Below, one piece after another: positions 1 to 7,311 of a stretch of 7,619 bases of DNA. Within the stretch, counting starts at the first letter, position 1, and every line of letters begins with the position of its first letter. The notes under the pieces were generated by a model, which made no database searches, was not told the DNA's origin, and saw only the letters and a program-made list of their open reading frames with translations. The stretch is from the NCBI GenBank assembly GCA_002690445.1, contig NZER01000120.1, positions 1 through 7,619 of the forward strand, in the 5' to 3' direction. A program made the position numbers and the translations under genes. This DNA is from Candidatus Pacearchaeota archaeon. GTDB lineage: Archaea > Nanoarchaeota > Nanoarchaeia > Pacearchaeales > GW2011-AR1.

Positions 1-3000
1 CTTCATGAATTACTGATGCATTGGCATCTCTCCACCCTACATCAATGTTATGAAATACTATTGGGCCATCTAAGACTCGACTTGCAGCCTCCTTTAAGAT
101 ACCCGCATATGGAGTTGATGCTCCTTGTTCCCAAGCCTCTTTACTAAACTCATGGAATATACCAAACTTAGTTGATTTATATAACTCATCCATAATCTTA
201 ACTATTTGAGTAGACGGATTATGAATAGTTGTTATATTTTCAAACAACTTTTGAAAATCTTCCGGCCATTCATCTAAAGGTGGTAGTAATTTTTCCCCTT
301 TAGGTAATCCCACACTACCAACAGTTAGCTTAATGATCTGTTTACTAAAGTGATCACCAATCTTATCAGGGATATACTTTTGAGCCGAAAGTCTAGTCTT
401 AATAATTTCAAAAGCACTAAAAGAATTCCCTATTAGGGGTGGCACAGCAGATGATAGATGCCCAATTGAATCACCATCTATCTTATTGGCCCACTCTTGC
501 AAAAGACTGGCTGGAGCAATTCGCATTAAAGCATCTAAGCTACGTGTATTTGGTATACGAGCATTCCACATCTCCTGTACGTATTTCTCTCCGCCTTTTT
601 CCGTAAGAAAGTCATCTATAATTCTTCTTACTAAAGGATGAGTAGGCCCGTGAGCACTATAAACAGTATTAACTATCTTTAAACCTAATTCATCATATGT
701 GCCTGGACGATTACTACCCACAGGTACAGGCCACGGAGTATTATCAACATACTCCACTAAAGCCTCATAAAAAGGCTCTAAATCCCCACCATGCATGCCT
801 GTCTCATATAAGAGTTCCTCTATGCGGAAGCTACCCATATGATTTTGCAACAAATATGCAGCAAACTCTTTTCCATGATCAGCGTAATTATTTTCATCTA
901 ACTCTGCAGGACTATCATCAAAAGAAACTACATCATCTAAGGGTTCAGCTTGAACCACATCAATCTCCTGTTCTTCTGTAGGTCCCTCCTCTAAAACAGC
1001 CGTTTCTTCCTCAACAGCAGTAACTTCTGAAGGATAGTATCCTCGTCCTCCTCTAGCTCCCCGTTGAACCTGAATACCTTTAGGAGGCTGTTCTCCTGGC
1101 TTTAAATATTCAAGTTTCTCGCCAGGTATAGCTTTAACTAGATACTCTAAAGTTGTTTCAAGGACTAGAAGTTTAGATAAATCATTAGCCTGTGATTTAT
1201 AAAACTCTGACTTAATCATATAATTAGGAAGTTTAATCATAATTGGATTTTTTAAATCGTTGACATGTAGAACTAATTCCTGCTCATCTTCAGCAGCAAT
1301 TCGCCCAGCGTATCGGTGTTTAATCGCATTAACATCTACTAAAACATCTGCACGATTAACCGCATACATGGCTACATAAGGCTCTGTCTCTTTTTGTGAA
1401 AAATAATTCTTTGATGCAGCATCTGGTGATAAAGATGTAGATTCAACTTGATTCTCTCCATGAGATTTTCCACCTTTAAATACATAAAACTTTTCAGGTA
1501 GTCCACGATGGATTAAAGAATCCTGAGTCTTCGCTTGTATCTGCTTTACAAATGATTTAGCCACGCCAGGAGTTACTTTTCTTCCCAACTTGTTTGCAAT
1601 CTTCTTTGCTGATTCTACATAGTCAATTTCTCCGTCTTCACCATATGCAAAAGCCTCAGTAAACGTTTCGGATTTAATATCATCCTTTTCACCAGCTTTC
1701 TCCACTAAACGTTTGACTATGCCTTTAAACCCCCCAGATTGTTTTAACTCTAATGCGTCCCCATAAGTATGTTCACTATAAAAATCAGGTATATCATCAT
1801 AATGAAGTTCTTTAATATCTGAAGGGATTTTAGGGAATGGGTCATCCGCATCACTGGCCCAATCCGGTTTAGGAGTTAAGCGAGGAGGGAGAAAAACTCC
1901 TTTATTAATCTGTCGTGTAAGAAGTTTCTCGACAGCTTCTTCCTTTGTTTTTCCAAAAAAGAGAGTAGCTCCGACATTTGAAGAGTTGACAGCAACTGTA
2001 CCAGCAGGCTGCTCCCAACGGCTCAACTCTGCTTCATTAAGATCATAAAATTTCACATCATCAGGATATTGTTGTGAATATGCCTCTAAACTACGGTCAT
2101 ACTGAGGCATTTCATAAGAAGTCTCAGCTTCAGCTTCAGGACGGCGGACTATGCCATCTGAGGGGATATCACCTCTATGCAGTAAATTACCCTCAGCTTG
2201 CCCTGTAAACCGCATATCAGCATCGTTTAACTTTGTAATATCGATAACAAATTCGCCCTCTGCCATTCTAGAAACGGGAGACATCCAAAGAAATTGTTCA
2301 GGCTCAGTAGGACGTGGATGCCCAAGTTTATCGGAATAAAAGCCACTCGTCACCTCTATTTCTTTGGGATCCATATTATAGGCTTGTAATCCGCCAGAAG
2401 GTGTCCCTTCAGCAACATGACCTGGTGGTCGATGATACCAATATCTTGGTATAGAGCCTCCCATTGCTCTTGCACCATCAGGTGTTTCAATCCAATTAGG
2501 AACACCTTCTGGCGGAGTCTGGTTAGTTGGGGGAAGTTTTTCAGTTAAATCAAGTTCTGGCGATTCAGCTTCAGGAGCCTGAACAGCAGATACTTCCCGT
2601 TCTTCAGTAGGCTCTAAAGTAGACTCTTCTTCAGCCCCCGTAACGTCTGAAGGATAATAACCTCGTCCCCCTCTAGCTCCACGTTGAATCTGAATGCCTT
2701 CAGGGGGATTTTCACCTGGCTTAAGATACTCAAGCTGCTCTCCCGGCACAGCTTTAGCTAAATAGTCTAAAACTTCTTCTAACACCAATAAACGAGTCAA
2801 ATCACTATTGGGAAGTAAATTTATCTCAACTTCATCATCGACTTTGATACCTCGTTTTTGAGCCTCTCCTGCATTAATTTCCAATGCATACTTAGCAGGC
2901 TTTTCAGGACTGTAAAGAGTATCGTTGCCTAACACAGATATGAGAGTGTTTCTAGAGATATCAACTACTTTCTTATCCTCACCAATCCAGATGATATCCA

Positions 3001-3190
3001 AAGCGAATTTCATCCCTCGCATGGTGATGACGGGATGTCCATCCAAATCAAAAAGCATTCCAGTGTTTACAGCTAAGTCATCCCGCCCTGAAAGACCTTT
3101 AACAGGATCAGTAGCAATTTCCACTGGAATCTCTACATCATCGATAAGGACTGTAGAGGTAGTCGTATGTTTAATGAAATCGATAGACAT
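1..3190 (-). CDS. Giant modular phage protein: DUF192 + duplicated RGARGGRGYY module + ADP-ribosyltransferase domain (3' end outside window)
   Basis: The frame is open from an ATG at 3190 to the window edge without a stop: at least 1063 residues, C-terminus missing. An in-frame TAA at 3200-3202 fixes the start; the Shine-Dalgarno is weak. Order: DUF192 domain (about 9-123); repeat module copy 1 (130-206) ending in an acidic, proline-rich linker; a segment with YH and LLHRGDIP motifs (245-347); an unassigned stretch (365-540); an ADP-ribosyltransferase-like domain (540-645) with R562, STS 584-586 and E636-x-E638; module copy 2 (670-750) with another acidic linker; and an unrecognised region (765 onward). 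No signal peptide or membrane span was seen. ADP-ribosyltransferase domains and RGxRGGxYY-type motifs are familiar in phage head-morphogenesis proteins, so a virion-associated or injected multi-effector is plausible, but this is inference. The exact domain combination is not one I recognise. Confidence 0.92.
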   Translation of the reverse strand, partial: MSIDFIKHTTTSTVLIDDVEIPVEIATDPVKGLSGRDDLAVNTGMLFDLDGHPVITMRGMKFALDIIWIGEDKKVVDISRNTLISVLGNDTLYSPEKPAKYALEINAGEAQKRGIKVDDEVEINLLPNSDLTRLLVLEEVLDYLAKAVPGEQLEYLKPGENPPEGIQIQRGARGGRGYYPSDVTGAEEESTLEPTEEREVSAVQAPEAESPELDLTEKLPPTNQTPPEGVPNWIETPDGARAMGGSIPRYWYHRPPGHVAEGTPSGGLQAYNMDPKEIEVTSGFYSDKLGHPRPTEPEQFLWMSPVSRMAEGEFVIDITKLNDADMRFTGQAEGNLLHRGDIPSDGIVRRPEAEAETSYEMPQYDRSLEAYSQQYPDDVKFYDLNEAELSRWEQPAGTVAVNSSNVGATLFFGKTKEEAVEKLLTRQINKGVFLPPRLTPKPDWASDADDPFPKIPSDIKELHYDDIPDFYSEHTYGDALELKQSGGFKGIVKRLVEKAGEKDDIKSETFTEAFAYGEDGEIDYVESAKKIANKLGRKVTPGVAKSFVKQIQAKTQDSLIHRGLPEKFYVFKGGKSHGENQVESTSLSPDAASKNYFSQKETEPYVAMYAVNRADVLVDVNAIKHRYAGRIAAEDEQELVLHVNDLKNPIMIKLPNYMIKSEFYKSQANDLSKLLVLETTLEYLVKAIPGEKLEYLKPGEQPPKGIQVQRGARGGRGYYPSEVTAVEEETAVLEEGPTEEQEIDVVQAEPLDDVVSFDDSPAELDENNYADHGKEFAAYLLQNHMGSFRIEELLYETGMHGGDLEPFYEALVEYVDNTPWPVPVGSNRPGTYDELGLKIVNTVYSAHGPTHPLVRRIIDDFLTEKGGEKYVQEMWNARIPNTRSLDALMRIAPASLLQEWANKIDGDSIGHLSSAVPPLIGNSFSAFEIIKTRLSAQKYIPDKIGDHFSKQIIKLTVGSVGLPKGEKLLPPLDEWPEDFQKLFENITTIHNPSTQIVKIMDELYKSTKFGIFHEFSKEAWEQGASTPYAGILKEAASRVLDGPIVFHNIDVGWRDANASVIHE
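941..1189 (-). repeat. Intragenic module, copy 2 (follows the ADP-ribosyltransferase domain)
   Basis: Residues 668-750: helix KLLVLETTLEYLVKAIPGE, LEYLKPGEQPPKGIQ, RGARGGRGYYPS and a linker containing TEEQEIDVVQAEP. It is the partner of the copy at 2573-2809. Each copy directly follows a compact domain (DUF192 or ADP-ribosyltransferase) and is followed by an acidic linker, so the module behaves like a reused C-terminal tag or hinge. The most conserved part is residues 704-722, the arginine/glycine-rich YYPS segment. Confidence 0.9.
1256..1573 (-). other. ADP-ribosyltransferase-like domain (R-S-E class)
   Basis: Residues 540-645 of the giant protein carry the three signature elements of arginine-type ADP-ribosyltransferases in the right order and spacing: an arginine in LIHRG (R562), the STS motif in VESTSLSPDAA (STS at 584-586) and a biglutamate element in EDEQELVLH (E636-x-E638, about 50 residues after STS). 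The strand VDVNAIKHRYAG before the glutamates also fits. Such domains bind NAD+ and transfer ADP-ribose to protein targets; in phages they can modify host transcription or translation proteins (T4 Alt, ModA and ModB are known cases) and also occur in head proteins. The target here is unknown. Catalytic residues appear intact, so activity is plausible. Confidence 0.68.
2573..2809 (-). repeat. Intragenic module, copy 1 (follows DUF192)
   Basis: Residues 128-206: a leucine-rich helix (LLVLEEVLDYLAKAVPGE), LEYLKPGENPPEGIQ, the motif RGARGGRGYYPS and an E/P/T-rich linker (TEEREVSAVQAPE). It matches copy 2 exactly 540 codons downstream, with 42 of 54 core residues identical between residues 130 and 183. 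The likeness continues into the linker after a 3-residue length change. The DNA is also clearly similar, so this is a recent or conserved duplication. RGxRGGxYY-like motifs recur in phage head-associated proteins; their role is not known to me. Confidence 0.9.
2822..3166 (-). other. DUF192 domain (N-terminal domain of the giant protein)
   Basis: Residues 9-123 follow the DUF192 pattern in order: a short beta start, GLSGRDDL (32-39), GMLFDLDG (44-51), ITMRGMKFALDIIWI (55-69) where the family usually has a WMKNT..LDIIFI stretch, KKVVDIS (73-79), a YSPEKPAKYALEINAGEA region (93-110) and a closing GIKVDDEVEI (114-123). The family is a small, widespread all-beta fold of uncertain function, usually a stand-alone protein of 110-160 residues. 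Here it has no secretion signal and is fused to a large phage protein. The usual tryptophan of the WMKNT motif is replaced by threonine (T56). Confidence 0.82.
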
Positions 3191-3302: not shown

Positions 3303-5579
3303 CTATCCGCATTTAGAGTAACCGCACTCCATGCAAGAAGAACATCCTTCTGACATAAATAGTGCTCCATCACATTCTGGACACCGTGACCCACCCACGA
3401 CTATCTCGCTAAAATTCTCTAATGTGGTCGCATCCCCATGACCATTAGCATGGATAGAAACGCCACCAGAGCCTGATAGCACCTGTCCGATACCATCTGC
3501 TAAGGATAAGACCATTTTACTATTATTCCATACAGGACAACAAGTAATTCCTAACAATTGTTTTGTAATAACTTCTGCTGGTATCCCATATTGGATTGCA
3601 GTAGATATTAAACGACACATAGCTTCAGTATCAGCAGCCTGGCACTTACCAGTTTTGCCTATGGTTGCAAAGACCTCATACATCTGATCTTTATCATAAT
3701 TAACGGTTACATACATCTTGCCATGTCCAGTAGGCATAGCTGTCGTAGATCCCACTAATATCGGAGGTCTAGAGTCAGGAGCTTCTATTGAAGCCGTTTC
3801 GGTCATATTAGCTGTAGAAACTAATACTTCACGCTCTCTAGACCCACGTCGATAAACAGTTATACCTTTACAATTCAAATCCCATGCTTGGTCATAAGCA
3901 ACAGCAATATCAGCTTCAGTAGCTTCACTAGGAAGATTAATAGTCTTAGAGATACCTGAATCTACATACTTCTGAAACGTAGCTTGCATCTTAATATGAT
4001 TATCATAGTTGATTTCATCACTAACAGTGAAAACTTTGCGAAGCTGTGGATCCATCAGCCCATCAATACTATGTCCATCATCAAGATATTCAGCGATAGC
4101 AGTATGAGACATATCAAGGCGTTGCTTTAAATCATCATTAATATAGAAAAGTTCCATATTTTCCAATGCAGCAGACATATTATGTTTCTTATATGCCAAT
4201 GCAAATAGAGGCTCTATTCCACTAGAACAATTAGCAATCATACTAATCGTGCCTGTAGGAGCAATAGATAGTCTCCATGCATTACGCATGGCTTCCCACG
4301 CACCACCGTTTATCTTATTTAATGGAGATTTATCAAACGCAGGAAAACTATCTTTCTGTTTGCCAATTTCCGCAGAAATTTTATCGGCTTGTTCTTTAAG
4401 AACAAAACCAATCTTATCTGCTAGTTTTATGGCTTCATCACTATCGTAAGGAATATTAAGACGAACCAATAAATCAGCGAAACCCATAATGCCTAAACCA
4501 ATCTTACGAGTAGATTGATTCATAGCAGTCGTATATTCCGTAGGATGCTGATTCGCATCCACGACATTATCTAAAAATCGAACACATGTAGTGATAACCG
4601 TAGCAAAACGTTCTTCATCAAAAAACGTATTTGGAACTGGGGTATCTACGTACTCAATAAAATTCCCAACATTGATACTACCTAGATTACAGGACTCTCC
4701 TGATAACAAAGGTTGTTCACCACAAGGATTAGTCGCATTAATCTGCCCTAACATGGGAGTAGAGTTATCTTGATTGATTCTATCTAGCCACACCATGCCA
4801 GGTTCCCCATTCATCCACGCACCTTTGATAATTTCATTATAAAGATTACTAGCCTTGATAAATCGTCCATCCATACTCTCAATAGGAGCATCATAATAAG
4901 TACGATCTAAAGGCCACGTAAGATGAATGTATTGATCTTGCCTAACAGCTTGCATGAAATTACTATCGGCACCGATAGAAATATTGAAGTTAGTAATCTG
5001 ACCTTCAGTATTCTTACAATGAATAAATTCTTCAATATCAGGATGATAGATTTCCATGATAGCCATATGTGCACCATCACGTTTCCCACCTTGTGTAATC
5101 ATAGTGCCAACCTGGGACAGCACTTTCAACACATGAATAGGCCCACATGCCTTACCTTGGGTAGTAGATATACCCTGACCTTTAGGTCGTAGCGCAGATA
5201 AACTAAATCCAATACCACCACCAAACTTCTCTATCATCGCTTGGTCATGGGCAACACGCATGATATCTTCCATGCTGTCAGGTATATCCATCACATAACA
5301 TGCAGACATAGTACCTTGACCTGTACCCGCATTCATGAGAGTAGGACTATTAGGAACAAAATCCAATGCCCACATCAAATCAAAGAATTCACGTTCTAGT
5401 TCTTTAACCTGTTTACCCGTAGCCCCATATTTGTACTCAACCTCAGCCATAGTACGGGCCACTCTACCAAACATGCCTTTGGCATCTTCAATAGGATTAC
5501 CATCCTCGCCCTTTAGATAATATCGCTTCTCTAAAATTTTAGAAGCATTATCCGTCAGGTTATATGTAGCTGCTTTCAC
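3303..5579 (-). CDS. nrdJ: Adenosylcobalamin-dependent (class II) ribonucleoside reductase NrdJ
   Basis: A complete 758-residue class II reductase that converts ribonucleotides to deoxyribonucleotides in the cytoplasm, using adenosylcobalamin to make the thiyl radical, so it needs no radical subunit or oxygen. Visible landmarks: PNSPTLMNAG (76-85); C94 in SACYV, matching the first redox cysteine; a GGGIGFS loop (120-126); NPCGE (284-288) with N284, thiyl-radical C286 and E288; C297 in ESCNLGSINV, the likely second redox cysteine; the phosphate-binding loop APTGTIS (440-446); NCKGITVYRRGS (569-580); a TSCPD-type domain (about 605-690); and a C-terminal cysteine cluster with C733, C736, C746, C749, C752 and C757 that resembles a zinc ribbon and redox tail. 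There is no N-terminal ATP cone. The start is GTG at 5579, 8 nt after GGAG. It supplies dNTPs for phage replication. Confidence 0.96.
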   Translation of the reverse strand: MKAATYNLTDNASKILEKRYYLKGEDGNPIEDAKGMFGRVARTMAEVEYKYGATGKQVKELEREFFDLMWALDFVPNSPTLMNAGTGQGTMSACYVMDIPDSMEDIMRVAHDQAMIEKFGGGIGFSLSALRPKGQGISTTQGKACGPIHVLKVLSQVGTMITQGGKRDGAHMAIMEIYHPDIEEFIHCKNTEGQITNFNISIGADSNFMQAVRQDQYIHLTWPLDRTYYDAPIESMDGRFIKASNLYNEIIKGAWMNGEPGMVWLDRINQDNSTPMLGQINATNPCGEQPLLSGESCNLGSINVGNFIEYVDTPVPNTFFDEERFATVITTCVRFLDNVVDANQHPTEYTTAMNQSTRKIGLGIMGFADLLVRLNIPYDSDEAIKLADKIGFVLKEQADKISAEIGKQKDSFPAFDKSPLNKINGGAWEAMRNAWRLSIAPTGTISMIANCSSGIEPLFALAYKKHNMSAALENMELFYINDDLKQRLDMSHTAIAEYLDDGHSIDGLMDPQLRKVFTVSDEINYDNHIKMQATFQKYVDSGISKTINLPSEATEADIAVAYDQAWDLNCKGITVYRRGSREREVLVSTANMTETASIEAPDSRPPILVGSTTAMPTGHGKMYVTVNYDKDQMYEVFATIGKTGKCQAADTEAMCRLISTAIQYGIPAEVITKQLLGITCCPVWNNSKMVLSLADGIGQVLSGSGGVSIHANGHGDATTLENFSEIVVGGSRCPECDGALFMSEGCSSCMECGYSKCG

Positions 5580-5679: not shown

Positions 5680-6141
5680 CTACGGAGATACACGTAACTC
5701 GCCCCATTTAGCTATCATTAATGCATCAATAGCATCTTGTGATAGTTTACTAATATCTTGACCTAAAATTTTAATAGCCATAGCCTTTACCTTATCCTTA
5801 TCGGCTCCACCGTCGCCAATGACATCCTTTTTCCACGTTTTCACATTGACTGTGAAAACATCCATGTCATGTTCCATAAATACAACACGACACATGGCTA
5901 ATACATGAACTAACTTAATCAAGGACTGACGGTTCTGAACTAGGGGGATATCCTCAATACAAACCAAATCATCTTGAGAAACATTGGACGCTACCCACGG
6001 AAGAAATTGTACGTAAAGTTCTTTAAGCCTTGTTTCCCAAGACCTTGATTTAGAGGTCAATTCTACCACATCGTAACCATCTAAGGAAAGGGTTGCGATG
6101 GCAATTTTCGAAGTACTGATGTCCAATCCCAAGATACTCAT
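5680..6141 (-). CDS. RuvC-like Holliday junction resolvase
   Basis: A 153-residue protein with an RNase H-like fold of the RuvC type, which cuts four-way DNA junctions during recombination, replication or packaging. The acidic catalytic residues sit where expected: D7 in SILGLDIST (first strand), E63 in LVCIEDIP (fourth strand), and D136 and D139 in QDAIDALMIAKWG near the C-terminus. WKKDVIGDGGADKDKVK (103-119) resembles the loop before the last helix in RuvC proteins. The length is close to E. coli RuvC (about 170). The start ATG overlaps the upstream stop in an ATGA (6138-6141) and has no strong Shine-Dalgarno, which suggests translational coupling. Bacteriophage resolvases of this type often lie beside Cas4-like nucleases, as here. 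Confidence 0.86.
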   Translation of the reverse strand: MSILGLDISTSKIAIATLSLDGYDVVELTSKSRSWETRLKELYVQFLPWVASNVSQDDLVCIEDIPLVQNRQSLIKLVHVLAMCRVVFMEHDMDVFTVNVKTWKKDVIGDGGADKDKVKAMAIKILGQDISKLSQDAIDALMIAKWGELRVSP

Positions 6142-6618: not shown

Positions 6619-7311
6619 TTAAATTCCTTTTATAAAATAATCTTTTTCACAAGTCGCTCTATAATTACACCAATCATGTTTCCAATCGGGTTGATATGGA
6701 AAATGTTCACCGTTATCAAGATACTCTTGTACTAATCGAAACTTCTCTAATGTAGTATCAATAATAGATTGACTACGTTCTGTTTCACAGATGATGTATT
6801 GTTGATTATTCTTATTGATATAAAAAATAATTCCTTCATCAATACCCGTCATCAACGAATACAAATTCCATTGAATCAAATGATCATGTCTAGGAAGATA
6901 ATCGGCAAACTTAGGATTCTTTGGTTCAGCCATACTCTTTAATTCTAAAAGAATCTCTTTATCATCCGATGGACGCTTAATGACTGCATCATAGAATCCT
7001 CTAATAGGTGGATCTTCATGCGTAATCTCTTGTTCCGACGATACCATTAATCCAGTTTCTATCAGTTTCTTCTCTATGAATTCATGGAATACCGTACCAA
7101 TACCCATACGCCGAAGATTCTGTGAAGCTATGGGATCTTGGTCATATCCTAACATGTAATAATACAATGCTCGTGGGCATAAATGAGCTTGTGATGGACT
7201 AAAATGAGTTCGTTTATATGATGCTCGTTGTTGCGTTAAATCATACTTATCAAACGCTGATTCTATCCAATGTTTTTCTCGTTCTTGTAATACTTGACTT
7301 AGCTTAGGCAT
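6619..7311 (-). CDS. Cas4/RecB-like PD-(D/E)XK exonuclease
   Basis: A 230-residue nuclease of the Cas4/RecB family. Motifs in order: C45 in HLCPRALYYY; H76 in GTVFHEFIE (metal-site helix); D108 in IRGFYDAVI; the catalytic E123-L-K125 in ILLELKSM; and Q147-x-x-x-Y151 in QWNLYSLM, the RecB-type QxxxY. Together these mark a PD-(D/E)XK metal-dependent DNA nuclease. The C-terminus has C215 and C221 in DWCNYRATC. With C45 these match three of the four cysteines that hold a 4Fe-4S cluster in Cas4, but the fourth site (C-x2-C-x5-C) is histidine (H212). Fe-S binding is thus plausible but uncertain. The likely role is end resection in phage recombination; no CRISPR array is in view. A strong AGGAG (7319-7323) 7 nt before the ATG fixes the start. 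Confidence 0.86.
   Translation of the reverse strand: MPKLSQVLQEREKHWIESAFDKYDLTQQRASYKRTHFSPSQAHLCPRALYYYMLGYDQDPIASQNLRRMGIGTVFHEFIEKKLIETGLMVSSEQEITHEDPPIRGFYDAVIKRPSDDKEILLELKSMAEPKNPKFADYLPRHDHLIQWNLYSLMTGIDEGIIFYINKNNQQYIICETERSQSIIDTTLEKFRLVQEYLDNGEHFPYQPDWKHDWCNYRATCEKDYFIKGI

Follow-up and report, generated by a model that had tools for sequence, protein, structure and literature searches.

Polyvalent proteins are a published class of viral proteins (Iyer et al., 2017; PMC5512222, cited throughout from the part of its text available), proposed to act as multi-effectors that are injected into the host. They are large, join unrelated activities including ADP-ribosyltransferase (ART), kinase and zincin, and occur in terminase-portal viruses. 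Processing by zincins was proposed for them, recombination of cassettes was suggested only for one kinase-containing locus, and ARTs of the R-S-E type were stated to be absent from genuine polyvalent proteins (PMC5512222). Bacteriophage T4 Alt, an R-S-E ART, is packaged in the head and injected (PMC5512222). Here we describe an open reading frame (ORF) on contig NZER01000120.1 that joins several domains around two copies of a repeated module. The window, meaning the whole stretch of DNA analysed, measures 7619 nt and is an entire virus record, itself a fragment. We favor the reading that this ORF is the front part of a polyvalent protein of a tailed prokaryote virus, delivered with its DNA, and that the module is a recombination hinge and perhaps a cargo tag. 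We hold this reading with moderate confidence.

The ORF runs on the minus strand and meets no stop ahead of the contig end; its C-terminal end is absent from the record. An earlier note, made from the letters of the window, had proposed a single frame of at least 1063 codons, and this is what we found. Its parts are, from the N-terminus:
2..3190, minus strand: the whole ORF, a putative polyvalent (multi-effector) protein of 1063 aa with an ATG start, 3' end cut off by the contig end
2822..3103, minus strand: DUF192/COG1430 domain (PF02643), aa 30-123, Pfam E 3.1e-18, 66.1 bits against a cut-off of 27
2555..2806, minus strand: module copy 1, aa 129-212, with helix, RGARGGRGYYPS segment and acidic tail
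2129..2554, minus strand: segment B, aa 213-354, with homologues in P0002, P0017 and L003 (94% in these three) and in P0020 and G005 (about 30%)
1889..2104, minus strand: small alpha-beta-beta-beta-alpha unit, aa 363-434, tentatively double-stranded RNA-binding-domain-like
1211..1813, minus strand: ART-like region ART-A, aa 460-660, with FYVFKGG, T585 S586 and E636-x-E638, and K572 at the position of the motif arginine
932..1186, minus strand: module copy 2, aa 669-753
2..931, minus strand: front part of a further domain, aa 754-1063, 310 aa C-terminal to copy 2
The ART-like unit as a whole spans aa 360-668, between segment B and copy 2.

The module is 84-85 aa long: a predicted helix is followed by a glycine-rich segment, RGxRGGxxYYPS, and the tail is acidic. 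The two copies in the window form a 183-nt direct repeat (1005-1187 and 2625-2807) with 75% identity in DNA and 68% in protein. A repeat of this length and identity, carried by other contigs as well, rules out chance or artefact as its source. It bears out the duplicated module of the earlier note, and both copies do lie behind a domain and ahead of an acidic stretch, as stated there. Segment B and ART-A have copy 1 as their common preceding module, and the N-terminal DUF192 domain has no module ahead of it. The module is also carried by single kinase-like genes and by topoisomerase IB genes, where it lies ahead of the catalytic part. The comparison of sequences shows that the module repeats and precedes effectors of unrelated kinds, including in neighboring single-enzyme genes. 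Among 29 proteins, 11 have the module or its helix at their start, beginning no later than aa 11. Together with the single-enzyme genes, these N-terminal copies suggest that the module may be more than a connector, since a connector need not sit there.

Comparison with a close relative, L002, locates an exchange inside the module. Over 618 nt, as far as a position within copy 1, the DNA of the two is 88% identical; over the 1151 nt that begin within copy 2, it is 98% identical. L002 lacks the window sequence between these positions. At sites that differ between the two window copies, the module of L002 changes from copy-1-like to copy-2-like within the module itself. Such a hybrid is what a crossover leaves behind when it deletes or inserts an entire cassette. 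These alignments show that at least one difference in cassettes between close relatives was made by crossover inside the module. In protein, aa 753-1063 of the window align at 99.7% identity with aa 213-523 of P0001, which is encoded by L002. There the further domain runs on into a second ART-like domain, ART-C, which is not in the window.

Matches between the window and L003 end in modules at 4901, 4849, 6435 and 6673 (positions on the reverse complement), and outside them at 5491 (about aa 354). Joints were collected from 29 proteins, P0016 being dropped as a near-duplicate of P0015, using pairs at 70% or more over at least 100 aa, and were merged by position. Counted per protein, 31 of 59 joints lie in a module or within 5 aa of one, compared to 10.1 expected (standard deviation 2.8, maximum 21 in 2000 random draws). 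Counted once per protein pair (n=61), 32 joints are in a module in both proteins, 13 in one of the two and 16 in neither. That the module lets cassettes be gained or lost by recombination is visible in the window and L002 pair, and is suggested by the other joints.

The relatives combine their domains differently, which supports the modular multi-effector protein that the earlier note had proposed. A protein search with the whole ORF gave at least 16 proteins among the best 7992 candidates by shared words, and 9 and 7 proteins, some of them repeated, came from searches that used just the module. A relative with both ends, in L003, has 2097 aa. It contains three modules, DUF192, a zincin-like HEFGH domain (24.5 bits for Pfam ATLF, where the cut-off is 27.4) and two ART-like regions recognized by motif. 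Its gene is followed by a kinase-like gene, which weakly matches PDC-M03A in PADLOC, and then by a topoisomerase IB gene, each with a module. The longest relative found, P0023, has 2391 aa, four module copies and a C-terminal topoisomerase IB. DUF192 is elsewhere combined with PI3_PI4_kinase or with a zincin-like domain below cut-off. Topoisomerase IB was assigned by Pfam in L003 and by precomputed Pfam in P0015, P0016 and P0023; the topoisomerase genes of G006, G008 and G010 were identified by position and a similar start, PHROGs giving them no name. The order in L003 is DUF192, module, ART, module, segment B, and in P0002 and P0017 it is DUF192, module, segment B and then another domain. The earlier note did not recognize the order of domains in the window. 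The full order occurs in no other protein here, but L003 and P0002/P0017 share parts of it and the class is known. The kinase-like part of L002 (L002:5200-9161) is divided between ORFs 5200-8523 and 8523-9161, which is either real or a sequencing error.

The window protein was compared with polyvalent proteins. At least two domains of unlike activity are found in one polypeptide, DUF192 and ART-like in the window, and modules with topoisomerase IB in P0023. Packaging genes were found in two module-bearing contigs, a portal in G006 (phrog_18178, 2.2e-46) and a terminase large subunit in G010 (phrog_2, 5.4e-13); the window is too short to show them. Pfam found DUF192 as the sole domain in the window protein, and no known LPD domain. 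In PMC5512222, the available text contains neither 'DUF192' nor 'linker', and 'topoisomerase' once, in a reference title. A repeated module before effectors, crossovers in it, a DUF192 cassette and R-S-E-like ARTs were not found in that text. Our literature search on DUF192, phage and ART found nothing, that on DUF192 and phage gave no title on a viral protein, and that on polyvalent proteins gave no title on this module, which was not sought under other names. The class is known, and what looks new is the repeated module, the crossovers in it, DUF192 as a cassette and the R-S-E-like ARTs. Polymorphic toxins were considered as well. They have an N-terminal secretion domain, middle repeats and variability mainly in the C-terminal toxin (PMC5512222). 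This class was rejected; Pfam finds DUF192 alone in the window protein, and the relatives differ in several cassettes, not just the last.

The ART-A pattern, FYV[F/Y][R/K]GG ... TS ... ExE, is conserved in an alignment of seven sequences (A3). TS and ExE are invariant in all seven rows, and the arginine position is R in six and K (K572) in the window. Neither Pfam nor PHROGs gives a match for ART-A. In a Foldseek search with its AlphaFold2 model, the top seven PDB entries are all either Vis, an ADP-ribosyltransferase, or the TreTu/TreX Rhs toxins, with a moderate best E of 0.029. A PDB profile search with A3 gave tankyrase-1 alone, at E 1.1. The earlier note had called this a clear ADP-ribosyltransferase; the motifs and the moderate fold match support an ART-like assignment but not its clarity, given no Pfam or PHROGs support and the replaced arginine. 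A homologue of ART-A (31%) lies within a 2091-aa protein in L069 that carries LPD38, a domain named from polyvalent proteins (PMC5512222). Compared by description with T4 Alt, a possible model for its action, the window shares the R-S-E-type motif pattern. However, Alt is not described as a multi-effector protein with repeated modules, and the window has K for R. ART-C, seen in L002/P0001, has the R-S-E-like pattern FELFRG ... SSWSL ... GNEYEM, with RG, S and ExE invariant in all seven rows of its alignment (A4). Pfam matched DRAT, an ART family, in one of these seven (E 0.0059), alongside further weak single matches. TRAP proteins in a PDB profile search with A4 (E 0.25 and worse) were judged chance. 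The ART-C model is too poor for its fold matches to be used; most of these are to helical-repeat proteins and cover the helices at the front of the model. Against the viral structure library, long and loose alignments were obtained with proteins of an uncultured Caudovirales phage (E 7.3e-5) and an uncultured archaeal virus (E 0.0086), and the HVTV-1 protein L7TKH6 was listed at E 7 only.

The DUF192 assignment of the earlier note is secure by the Pfam gathering score, and aa 30-123 belong to DUF192/COG1430, here as a cassette within a viral multi-effector protein. Solved relatives in the PDB are 3pjy (E 3.1e-8) and 3m7a (E 2.3e-7). We know of no established function for DUF192. The predicted structure of segment B is poor. 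The unit ahead of the ART that resembles a double-stranded RNA-binding domain could, tentatively, bind RNA.

Our searches also revealed a link to cultured viruses. With tblastn against INPHARED, neither the whole ORF (E limit 1e-5) nor the module (E limit 1) found cultured relatives. The portal of the relatives matched, in INPHARED, Haloarcula tailed viruses only (8 records, 26-27%). A profile of the module matched, in its C-terminal half, HVTV-1 gp115 (independent E-value, iE, 4.5e-5) and gp116 (2.4e-5, second copy 0.029), HCTV-5 gp114 (2.4e-4, further copies 0.0084 and 0.35) and HCTV-1 gp109 (4.6e-4), the scan of HCTV-5 and HCTV-1 covering 20 kb around the head genes. It matched nothing in HFTV1, and nothing in reversed ORFs at iE <1. 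The four matching proteins are all encoded between the portal and the head protease. The pattern PPxGxxVxxGxxGGxxYYPSE persists in part to these viruses. HVTV-1, HCTV-5 and HCTV-1 (Druskaviridae), whose gp115, gp114 and gp109 are annotated as zeta toxins, thereby have in common with the relatives of the window the portal homology and the C-terminal half of the module. An ART was noted in HVTV-1 and HCTV-5 by a 2021 survey (PMC8651126, available in part). Like the window ORF, HVTV-1 gp115 is a multi-effector protein (Zeta_toxin and ADPrib_exo_Tox by Pfam), with other repeated linkers. The Haloarcula virus proteins differ in that they have no helix half, their genes are in the head cluster and their effectors are others. 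Injection of the window protein would be consistent with the polyvalent class and with the fact that cultured haloviruses encode related proteins among their head genes. A family A DNA polymerase and a beta-clamp-like protein are encoded in L003, and these genes look bacterial whereas the portal of the relatives looks haloviral. A portal scan of genome contigs for a host found no relative.

Linkers of other kinds were also observed. HVTV-1 gp115 (L063, 18622-22563) has two copies of WVSDPTEQAPNRWT.T.TGEHRYQETKP, and gp113 of the same virus (L063, 14229-17375) contains HEMGH, a zincin-like motif that Pfam does not match. In G008, a tRNA nucleotidyltransferase/HD protein encoded close to the head genes (L056:8371-10713) has the linker YDPEGFHVGPRHGKYFKPGEREAGGKEVEIVQAP, of a kind also present in P0003, P0013 and P0020. 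Contig 3300025305_001987 (L074:3292-12405) contains a 3038-codon open stretch, cut by the end of the locus, in which a different repeat, KQRRAYHKHDGFPEHPVRV, occurs three times without change. Pfam assigns NUDIX and topoisomerase IB parts within it, and two more regions look ART-C-like by eye. Linkers that are repeated and particular to one lineage may be more widespread.

In the mechanism that we propose, domains would be kept as cassettes bounded by module copies, with a copy before an effector or group of effectors. The proteins would be expressed late, packaged in the head and delivered into the host along with the DNA. The ART-like, kinase-like and protease-like parts would then modify host proteins early, following the polyvalent model (PMC5512222). 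The repeated module would let the virus plug new effectors into one delivery route, acting as a recombination hinge and possibly as a cargo tag recognized during head assembly. That the module marks cargo for loading is a tentative suggestion, and we would sooner doubt it than not. Equally speculative is its extension, in which the module is a plug-in port, a tag that sends any effector fused behind it into the virion and is repeated so that homologous recombination swaps effectors. This would hold from the uncultured viruses to the Haloarcula viruses, and lineages with other linkers, such as 3300025305_001987, would have evolved the same independently. An anchor point, as the earlier note suggested, is possible for the module. 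An exchange point visible inside the repeated module gives a concrete, testable rule for the re-arming of polyvalent proteins. If the module were also a loading tag, it would be a general virion-cargo signal, open to testing in the cultured Haloarcula viruses. Should the ARTs turn out to be Alt-family R-S-E enzymes, they would contradict the published exclusion of such ARTs from genuine polyvalent proteins (PMC5512222).

Several alternatives were weighed. The protein may be a polyprotein, with the module as a cleavage site at which the zincin-like domain of some relatives, or a head maturation protease, frees the effectors. A HEFGH zincin-like domain in L003, P0002, P0005 and P0010, a head-maturation-protease-like C-terminus in the 970-aa protein of G010 (E 5e-5) and the proposed processing by zincins (PMC5512222) are in its favor. 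However, HEFGH is found in just four of the 29 proteins compared, modules are located at or near N-termini and within topoisomerase IB genes ahead of the catalytic part, and the conserved glycine-rich half is longer than a short cleavage site requires. We found no evidence for the cut at the module that the earlier note envisaged. Cleavage there is possible but not supported, and we regard a polyprotein as quite improbable. The module could instead be a passive connector, merely a flexible hinge whose copies are held similar by recombination among themselves. Its acidic regions, modeled with low confidence, would fit a hinge, copies within one lineage are alike as gene conversion would give, and the module of L002 is itself a hybrid. 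The N-terminal modules in 11 of 29 proteins, the partial conservation of PPxGxxVxxGxxGGxxYYPSE to the Haloarcula viruses and the modules of single kinase-like and topoisomerase IB genes argue against this view, which we find improbable.

The protein may also be intracellular only, a multifunctional protein of host takeover or of nucleotide/DNA metabolism that is not packaged. A profile search (domain E 1e-3 or better) found the module in 13 of the 349 predicted genes in seven contigs, called on 13 stretches with G010 as seven pieces and G002 in part. All 13 are downstream of ribonucleotide reductase, and before ThyX in G002, G006, G008 and G010, which reach it. This constant position after the reductase, before topoisomerase IB and ThyX, speaks for an intracellular role. 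On the other hand, the same-strand gene run extends into terminase and portal, the halovirus relatives lie between portal and head protease, and LPD38, a polyvalent-protein domain, accompanies the ART-A relative in the L069 protein. We consider an exclusively intracellular protein unlikely, if worth keeping in mind.

A number of observations weigh against delivery with the DNA and a hinge module. Module genes in window-related contigs adjoin replication and nucleotide genes, not the head cluster. Outside modules lie 28 of the 59 joints, and the joints are not independent because other close relatives were kept. P0012 has no module. The module matched in 11 of 12 contigs searched with the profile, the twelfth ending before the module position, but these were mostly found via the module, and its frequency there is not independent. 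The structure model of the module has low to middling confidence. The different linker of 3300025305_001987 suggests that the sequence of the module is not essential to the principle. No packaging signal common to the module and structural proteins was seen, and the helix half is also outside the halovirus matches. None of the other 336 of the 349 genes was matched by a profile of the helix alone, built from 42 distinct copies (next best iE 2.9). A capsid-targeting helix common to structural proteins was dropped on this null result, the likeness by eye of helices at the start of some head-cluster proteins being vague. The window ART, with K replacing the conserved R, may be weak or inactive. 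The ART-C model is unreliable (mean pLDDT, the predicted local distance difference test, 46.7), its identification being by motifs only.

Weaker matches provide additional leads. Its glycine-rich half weakly matches the protein just after the portal in G006 (1015 aa, E 3.1e-5) and G010 (1042 aa, E 0.00115), a lead only, as both miss E 1e-3 with the seed profile and are outside the 13 genes. The second gene after the portal is kinase-like in G006 (L053:15488-17746, PI3_PI4_kinase at 26.2 bits, just below cut-off) and, by similarity, in G010 (L046:7615-10353). As its product resembles the module-bearing kinases, it is possibly a virion kinase. The N-terminal part of phrog_24083, an unnamed family of 1233 positions, matches aa 151-188 of the window (E 0.019) and the kinase-like (0.0016) and topoisomerase (0.00038) proteins of L003. 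Some described phage protein may begin with a module-like segment.

The ORF is the last minus-strand gene of the window, after ribonucleotide reductase. The genes upstream of it are:
3303..5579, minus strand: ribonucleotide reductase with TSCPD domain, the constant upstream neighbor of the ORF
5680..6141, minus strand: RuvC-like Holliday junction resolvase, a context gene
6619..7311, minus strand: PD-(D/E)XK exonuclease, a context gene
The minus strand also encodes a nuclease-like fragment (DUF559, below cut-off) and an unknown protein between the exonuclease and RuvC. A module-bearing gene directly follows ribonucleotide reductase on the same strand in eight of the nine contigs that show sequence beyond the reductase (window, L002, G002, G005, G006, G008, G010, G011 and G012). 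The exception is G011, where one 209-aa gene lies between the two. The L004 contig stops inside DUF192 and is uninformative in this respect. In G006, intein-like insertions (Intein_splicing with LAGLIDADG or HNH) are found in ribonucleotide reductase, ThyX and the gene at the terminase position (L052:14645-17977, L053:3979-5904 and L053:7459-10572), and each of these genes exceeds in length its counterparts in the other contigs with gene calls.

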